From the NCBI GenBank assembly GCA_013824115.1, contig PNNG01000010.1, positions 122,461 through 186,460 on the forward strand: a stretch of 64,000 nucleotides of DNA. The letters run 5' to 3'. The notes beneath the pieces are model-generated. The model ran no database searches, was not told the DNA's origin, and worked only from the letters and a program-made list of their open reading frames with translations. Numbering within the stretch: the first letter of the stretch is position 1; the number at the start of each line of letters is the position of its first letter. Source of the DNA: Sphingobacteriaceae bacterium (lineage in GTDB: Bacteria > Bacteroidota > Bacteroidia > UBA7662). This document shows positions 56,099 to 57,122 of this stretch, one piece after another. The translations under genes and the position numbers were made by a program.

Positions 56099-56220
56099 CA
56101 AATTCGTAGTTACACGTTAGGCGAAATGAGCAATCAATCATTCGTTCGCGCTAAGCCATTCTCAATACATTCATTTTGCTTGCGTCTTGCATGGGAATCG
56201 TTGTTCCATTGGGCCGGCAT

Positions 56221-56571
56221 TTCGTTGGTGCGACCCCCTCGGGGTCGATTTGATTTTCGGTATCATTTCATCTACCCACATGGCACCCCCTCGGGGTGCT
56301 TTGCGATGATTCAAACCACATAATCAGGTTCAAACAGAAAGATTACAGCGTCATGGTAGCTTAAAATGACCCCGAGGGGGTCAAATGTAGGTAGTAATTC
56401 AACATACCAACCCATCTCGACCCCGAGGGGGTCGCACCACGACGAATCAATGATTCGACCGCCATCATGCCTTATGCAACCCTAAAATTAATGACATTGC
56501 CCGAGGGGTTCATAAATGGGTAGCATTTTCATTTCACCAACCATTTCGACCCCGAGGGGGTCGCACCACGA
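56221..56571. repeat. Cluster of REP-like palindromes forming three composite two-hairpin units
   Basis: 17-bp hairpins at 56231-56247, 56283-56299, 56367-56383, 56418-56434, 56547-56563 and a degenerate one at ~56495-56511; core RCCCC CTC/GAG GGGGY. Confidence 0.92.
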
Positions 56572-56648
56572 AATCACCTTTCCACCAATATTTCATTTGA
56601 GCAAATCCCAATTGCAATTAGTGAGATTGCCTCAATCCTGAATTATTA

Positions 56649-57122
56649 TTACTTGTAGTCGGCTAAAATCCATTCAAACAAAAATTCATCCTTATACTCA
56701 ATTTGAAACTCCCGCAACAAGGCTTTATACTCATCCCGAAAGTTCTGTTTCCGATGATGAGCCTTTTGGTTTCTAATGTATTCAATCACCCTATCTACAT
56801 CGTTCTGACTGTATGAAAAGGATCCAAAACCCTCCTGCCATTGAAATTTGAATGGCGTAAAATGACTATCGTTGATAAATTGGTCAGATGACTTCTTTAT
56901 TTCGCGCACCAAATCAGACAAACAGCAACTTGGTCGCATGCCAATCAGTATGTGGATGTGGTCAGGCATACCATTTATAGCAAGCAACTTTTGCTCTTTA
57001 TTGCTAATTATCCCTGAAATGTACTTGTATAATTGGTCTTCCCACTGAGGTTGAATAAGAGCCGCGCGGGCCTTCACGGCAAAAACTACCTGAATGTGAA
57101 TTTTGGAAAAATTCCCCGGCAT
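56649..57122 (-). mobile_element. REP-associated tyrosine transposase (RAYT; Y1/TnpA_IS200-like)
   Basis: IQVVFAVKAR; HUH motif GMPDHIHILIGM; catalytic-Tyr-type VIEYIRNQKAHHRKQNF. Confidence 0.92.

Follow-up and report, generated by a model that had tools for sequence, protein, structure and literature searches.

A bipartite hairpin repeat beside a subclass 1.2 Y1 transposase gene, probably spread as an inverted module inside an IS4-type MITE

RAYT genes are flanked by multi-copy cognate palindromes in which the REP hairpin bears GT[AG]G at its 5' foot, and elements of the IS200/IS605 type are present in numerous nearly identical copies, each with its gene enclosed by hairpins at the ends. 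TnpA-Y1 enzymes of subclass 1.2 have been catalogued without REPs (Quentin et al. 2018, PMC6006769). A search of the open-access literature revealed neither an earlier report of REPs for subclass 1.2 nor a MITE/REP paper for Flavobacteria. The window analysed here, a stretch of 64,000 nucleotides from a Sphingobacteriaceae bacterium (GCA_013824115.1, contig PNNG01000010.1, positions 122,461 to 186,460), carries a Y1 gene beside repeated hairpins. The favoured reading, to which a probability of about 0.7 is given, is that the hairpins form a bipartite REP of subclass 1.2 Y1 enzymes, the inverted module of which has been spread in this genome inside an IS4-type MITE.

The window Y1 protein passed the IS200/IS605 profile NF033573 (63.6 bits, cut-off 55) and failed the RAYT profile NF047646 (NCBIfam REP_Tyr_transpos; 31.8 bits, cut-off 80). 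Its nearest solved chains were transposases, including 2fyx and 2xm3, and its motifs fit the TnpA-Y1 subclass 1.2 signature (DH[IV]H, WQ, Y...Q..HH, about 150 aa), Y...Q..HH being present in 55 of 60 relatives. Based on these profiles and motifs the enzyme is closest to IS200/IS605 TnpA, bears the subclass 1.2 signature and is no canonical RAYT, so that the RAYT identity proposed in an earlier note on this DNA was given up; sequence alone is considered to separate IS200 from REP types in this case. The genome encodes three divergent Y1 genes with 49-53% identity to the window protein. The IS200/IS605 pattern of near-identical copies and a gene enclosed by end hairpins was not found, while flanking by multi-copy cognate palindromes, as with RAYT genes, was found in the window and at related Y1 loci. 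GT[AG]G was not present at the 5' foot of the hairpin, hairpin B having TAG 8-9 nt on its 3' side. Enclosure of the Y1 gene itself by a pair of terminal inverted repeats (TIRs) was considered and dropped, no TIR being seen beyond 57122.

Direct reading of the window (Table 1) revealed five perfect hairpins and a truncated sixth, a remnant of hairpin B of element 2 at about 56500-56513, with A-to-B offsets of 52, 51 and about 50 bp. The features listed in the earlier note (hairpins, tags, offsets of 51-52 bp) were recovered in place. The loose core CCCCNNCGGGG, allowing one mismatch, was not rare (18 window matches, 15.3 expected); the perfect cores, five in number, all fell within one 330-bp stretch. 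That note had arranged the hairpins as three separate A-B units. The A-B pairs are real, but units 1 and 2 are the facing halves (X and Y) of one inverted element, element 1, with unit 3 representing a second, incomplete copy, element 2. Two tags had been proposed as well: CTACC, which on the other strand is the TAG 8-9 nt 3' of hairpin B, is kept over genera, whereas GGTG at the foot of hairpin A is present in most own-genome copies, which are MITE copies, and only patchily elsewhere; it resembles GTGG/GTAG without being identical. The left TIR of element 1 is decayed, near 56162, and the right end of element 2 sits 17 bp from the Y1 stop codon. Element 1 appears to have been inserted into hairpin B of element 2.

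Table 1. Features of the two elements and of the adjoining Y1 gene, in window coordinates.
Feature	Position	Strand	Sequence or description	Evidence
Element 1	56162..56501	+	~340-bp TIR-bounded MITE-like element, A-tag'-B'-(~84)-B-tag-A'	Alignment with 10 other copies; left end decayed, approximate
Hairpin A of half X	56231..56247	+	CGACCCC-CTC-GGGGTCG	Direct read, genome motif search, copy alignment
Tag of half X	56272..56281	-	CTACCCACAT on +; ATGTGGGTAG on the strand placing the tag 3' of hairpin B	
Hairpin B of half X	56283..56299	+	GCACCCC-CTC-GGGGTGC	Direct read, genome motif search, copy alignment
Hairpin B of half Y	56367..56383	-	TGACCCC-CTC-GGGGTCA	Direct read, genome motif search, copy alignment
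Tag of half Y	56384..56394	+	AATGTAGGTAG	Copy alignment, tag comparison
Hairpin A of half Y	56418..56434	-	CGACCCC-CTC-GGGGTCG	Direct read, genome motif search, copy alignment
Right TIR of element 1	56485..56501	-	AAATTAATGACATTGCC	Recurs at other copy sites
Element 2	56500..56631	-	Partial older copy (half Y)	Hairpin B truncated where element 1 abuts
Tag of element 2	56519..56523	+	GGTAG	Direct read
Hairpin A of element 2 (unit 3 of the earlier note)	56547..56563	-	CGACCCC-CTC-GGGGTCG	Direct read, genome motif search
Decayed right TIR of element 2	56617..56631	-	ATTAGTGAGATTGCC	Compared with aligned copies
Y1 (HUH) transposase-like gene	56649..57122	-	157 aa; DHIH / WQ / YIRNQKAHH	PF01797 match, profiles, motifs, structure neighbours

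A search of the 2.84-Mb assembly with RCCCCNTCGGGGY yielded 35 matches as opposed to 1 for a reversed-pattern control, nearly all of them clustered at offsets of 51-53 bp, and the hairpin pairs are therefore not due to chance. The A-B units, for which a genome-wide search had been proposed, do recur, and the Y1/HUH gene adjoins multi-copy tagged two-hairpin units at a fixed offset of about 51 bp, as had been claimed. Matches at C5, C16 and C24 were rejected as family copies, being isolated or part of other repeats. In well-preserved copies the order is A, B', B, A', two facing A-B pairs that together span about 190 bp, and this module is enclosed by GGCAATGTCATTAAGTTAA and its inverse. Eleven genome copies align over ~337 bp, including TIRs of ~19 bp; similarity ends at the TIRs and the flanks are unrelated. 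With so little variation in their stems, the hairpins of the 11 copies show only weak covariation, and tag-to-tag pairs covary in only two to three lineages. The latter bears on a function as RNA, in which the units would serve to terminate transcription or to stabilise mRNA: they form GC-rich hairpins between genes, and the tag halves are capable of long-range pairing in which both sides have changed. Paired changes of this kind can, however, reflect two lineages, an Rfam search of these loci gave no match, and both the tandem arrays and the linkage to Y1 genes described below are unexpected for terminators, which makes an RNA role very unlikely.

The TIR also bounds own-genome elements devoid of these hairpins (C22:665-942 and C26:16930-17206) and is present in at least 117 stretches from other genomes, which belong to Bacteroidota and Firmicutes. 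In one of these (L128) both TIR ends flank a gene for a 455-aa DDE_Tnp_1 protein, giving a 1.8-kb element, and in four others (L101, L180, L183 and L194) a DDE_Tnp_1 gene lies beside one TIR end. Elsewhere, short TIR elements occupy palindromes of the CCnnnGG type and are accompanied by duplications of roughly 7-10 bp. The target-site duplication is clear in L102, L107, L111, L128 and others; among the own copies it is clear in C1 only (CCTTGGG on both sides) and decayed or absent in the rest. A search for one consistent target duplication throughout the own copies gave none. By these likenesses the window-family elements are classed as MITEs of an IS4-type DDE transposon, where "IS4-type" denotes Pfam family, repeat and duplications and not an ISfinder comparison. 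Neither a DDE_Tnp_1 (PF01609) gene nor an autonomous IS4 element was matched in the own assembly (completeness 85%).

Since the genome copies of the window family lie in a TIR-bounded IS4-type MITE, their number is no evidence of movement by the Y1 enzyme; the MITE would thus explain most of the dispersal in this genome, and the Y1 enzyme need not. This weighs on a canonical REPtron, in which a RAYT excises and disperses A-B REP units into BIME-like clusters. Such a system would agree with a Y1 gene adjoining tagged hairpins, with units that are multi-copy and correlate in presence with the enzyme, and with some pairs in two other genomes (G253 and G145) that lie outside any visible TIR. It is nevertheless quite improbable, the enzyme being below the NCBIfam RAYT cut-off and having subclass 1.2 motifs, the own-genome copies being TIR-bounded, and the tag lying 3' of the hairpin and not as GTAG directly at its 5' foot.

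Several other repeats were observed in the course of these searches. The C22 and C26 elements (L077 and L078) constitute a second MITE family with the same terminal repeats and an unrelated interior (GAGCCCTCCCGCGTAGCGGTGC..., ACCCCGG...CCGGGGT). MITEs of ~136 bp with the same TIR were found in several Bacteroidota (L123, L165, L190 and L199) and have in common a long palindromic interior (TCCTTCCGAGGTACGAGGAATC...). At C20:20900-21540 (L080) of the own genome an array of GCCCTGTCGGGGCGGCATATGGGTAG repeats is broken by one TIR-element end. The PINSR repeat of Prevotella differs from the present ones, being without TIRs.

The surroundings of 60 related Y1 genes from the same bacterial class were surveyed, comparing intergenic DNA within 1.5 kb with distal intergenic DNA as control; a whole-sequence version was also carried out. 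Hairpin density was 4.0 per kb intergenic near the Y1 genes versus 1.0 in the control. Neighbouring hairpins 48-56 bp apart amounted to 49 pairs (16 loci) near Y1 genes versus 2 in the control, the genomes being related and the counts not independent, and in these pairs a TAG 9 nt on the 3' side of a hairpin was counted 27 times, 2.3 being expected after shuffling. By the criteria used, about a third of the 60 loci have no proximal intergenic hairpin. The unit of a typical relative reads B hairpin-ACATGTTTATAGA-about 25 nt-A hairpin CGACCCCnnnGGGGTCG. Hairpin A was identified in 46 of 295 genomes, and the enzyme is encoded by 40 of these 46 versus 95 of the 249 others (Fisher p = 4e-10, kinship ignored), in agreement with the link between repeat and enzyme that the earlier note had proposed to test in relatives. 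In seven genomes (G084, G092, G119, G184, G191, G262 and G285) it stands beside the Y1 gene. The B stems vary between genomes (GAACCC, CAAACCC, GATGCC, TGAGCC) with palindromy kept, supporting selection on the fold.

Based on these comparisons, the bipartite REP is described as two GC-rich hairpins ~51 bp apart, B being followed 8-9 nt downstream by a TAG-containing tag, and the survey is taken to show that this design is conserved beside subclass 1.2 genes across the class, stems being replaced while palindromy, offset and tag are kept. The repeats beside subclass 1.2 genes contradict the published table entry; membership of the window enzyme in subclass 1.2 stands. Most own-genome copies of the window hairpin family have no Y1 gene nearby, which would suit an explanation by mere internal MITE structure with the Y1 gene as a chance neighbour. 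That explanation is extremely improbable, as Y1 genes of other genera are flanked by such bipartite units where the TIR is missing, and significantly more often than intergenic controls; in three relatives (L255, L257 and L264) the units form arrays at the Y1 locus and the TIR is not visible there. Since the hairpins of most relatives are grouped around the Y1 gene, any mobilisation by Y1 is regarded as putative.

All three own-genome Y1 genes are in or beside hairpin arrays of their own, which differ from one another. At the C35 locus the two-hairpin design is built from different stems, and further copies of its hairpin are present on several contigs besides C35. The array at C35:1-1400 (L045) is of the type GCGCCC... 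and that on C40 (L044) of the type GCCCCGTCAGGGGCGGCATATGGGTA, the C40 array ending in the same GGGTAG tag. A subclass 1.2-like Y1 gene in L272 has upstream of it an extended array of direct repeats of ~50 bp, every one of which contains a CGACCCTGAAGGGGTCG hairpin. In G253, which has another hairpin family, the same TIR encloses B-A-B' (L341, L338 and L336) beside free pairs (L329 and L334), and two further Bacteroidetes loci (L126 and L189) look similar to this arrangement.

Hairpin B, a possible cleavage tag, ~22-25 nt and then hairpin A resemble the right-end/left-end junction of IS608. The fixed B-tag-A geometry recalls the joined ends of an IS200-type circle and serves as a lead only. 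Taken literally, B-tag-A would be where the two ends of a minimal, PATE-like IS200 relative meet, right end to left end, with its head-to-tail copies making up the arrays, for which this resemblance and the constant period of the tandem arrays in L264, L255 and L257 speak. Against it, inverted B' hairpins are likewise common (window, L255 and L257), A and B do not regularly enclose the Y1 gene in the manner of an IS, and a by-eye look for IS608-type guide/cleavage-site complementarity gave no support; a junction of this kind is considered unlikely.

Under the favoured reading of a bipartite REP carried by a MITE, the Y1 enzyme would recognise hairpin B and the tag, and probably A, in single-stranded DNA, and would cut and rejoin near the tag. 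The inverted module A-B'-B-A' would have come to lie inside a MITE whose terminal repeats are of the IS4 type, and this MITE may have been spread to about 11 sites by an IS4-type DDE transposase acting in trans, with a preference for hairpin-like targets. In the window, element 1 would then have entered hairpin B of element 2, 17 bp from the Y1 gene. Hairpin-inserting MITEs may repeatedly have come to carry modules, perhaps through two ends landing either side of one. It is tentatively proposed, at somewhat less than even odds, that subclass 1.2 has a distinct bipartite REP system, with B, tag and A like an IS200 right-end/left-end junction, and that hairpin-seeking IS4-type MITEs took up its modules more than once. 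If true, this would be a second, unrelated dispersal route for REPs. REP systems and transposition of the IS200 type would be connected by a domesticated class 1 enzyme that has bipartite repeats of its own, and such an enzyme and its repeats are a concrete substrate for tests. The MITE finding is also a warning that the copy number of REP-like sequences in a genome need not reflect the activity of a neighbouring Y1 enzyme.

Among known systems, REP/BIME sequences with TnpA-REP (RAYT; REPtrons, class 2; PMC6006769, PMC8266576) likewise consist of a Y1/HUH gene with cognate palindromes on its flanks that are tagged, multi-copy and arranged as inverted pairs. The present locus differs in its class 1.2 enzyme, in its two different hairpins with short perfect stems at a fixed ~51 bp offset, and in the position of the tag, TAG 8-9 nt 3' of the hairpin as opposed to GT[AG]G at the 5' foot. 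TnpA-Y1 of subclass 1.2 (PMC6006769) agrees in length, in DH[IV]H, WQ and Y...Q..HH, in occurrence in Bacteroidetes and in low copy number; unlike that entry, which lists no REP, many members are here flanked by repeated hairpins. TIRtrons (TIRYT; PMC3733652) are similar in that inverted repeats of partial self-complementarity, also present at other sites, lie on both sides of Y1 genes, but there the TIRs flank the Y1 gene, whereas here TIRs of the IS4 type enclose a hairpin module devoid of genes. IS4-family MITEs have in common with the present elements TIRs shared with DDE_Tnp_1 elements, a lack of coding capacity and duplications of 7-10 bp, the last being clear among the own copies in C1 only, and differ from them in that the interior here is a bipartite REP module and the target a hairpin-like site. 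Insertion into REP sequences is a property of ISPpu9 too (PMC8450116), which is another kind of IS, whereas the MITE described here also carries REP-like units itself.
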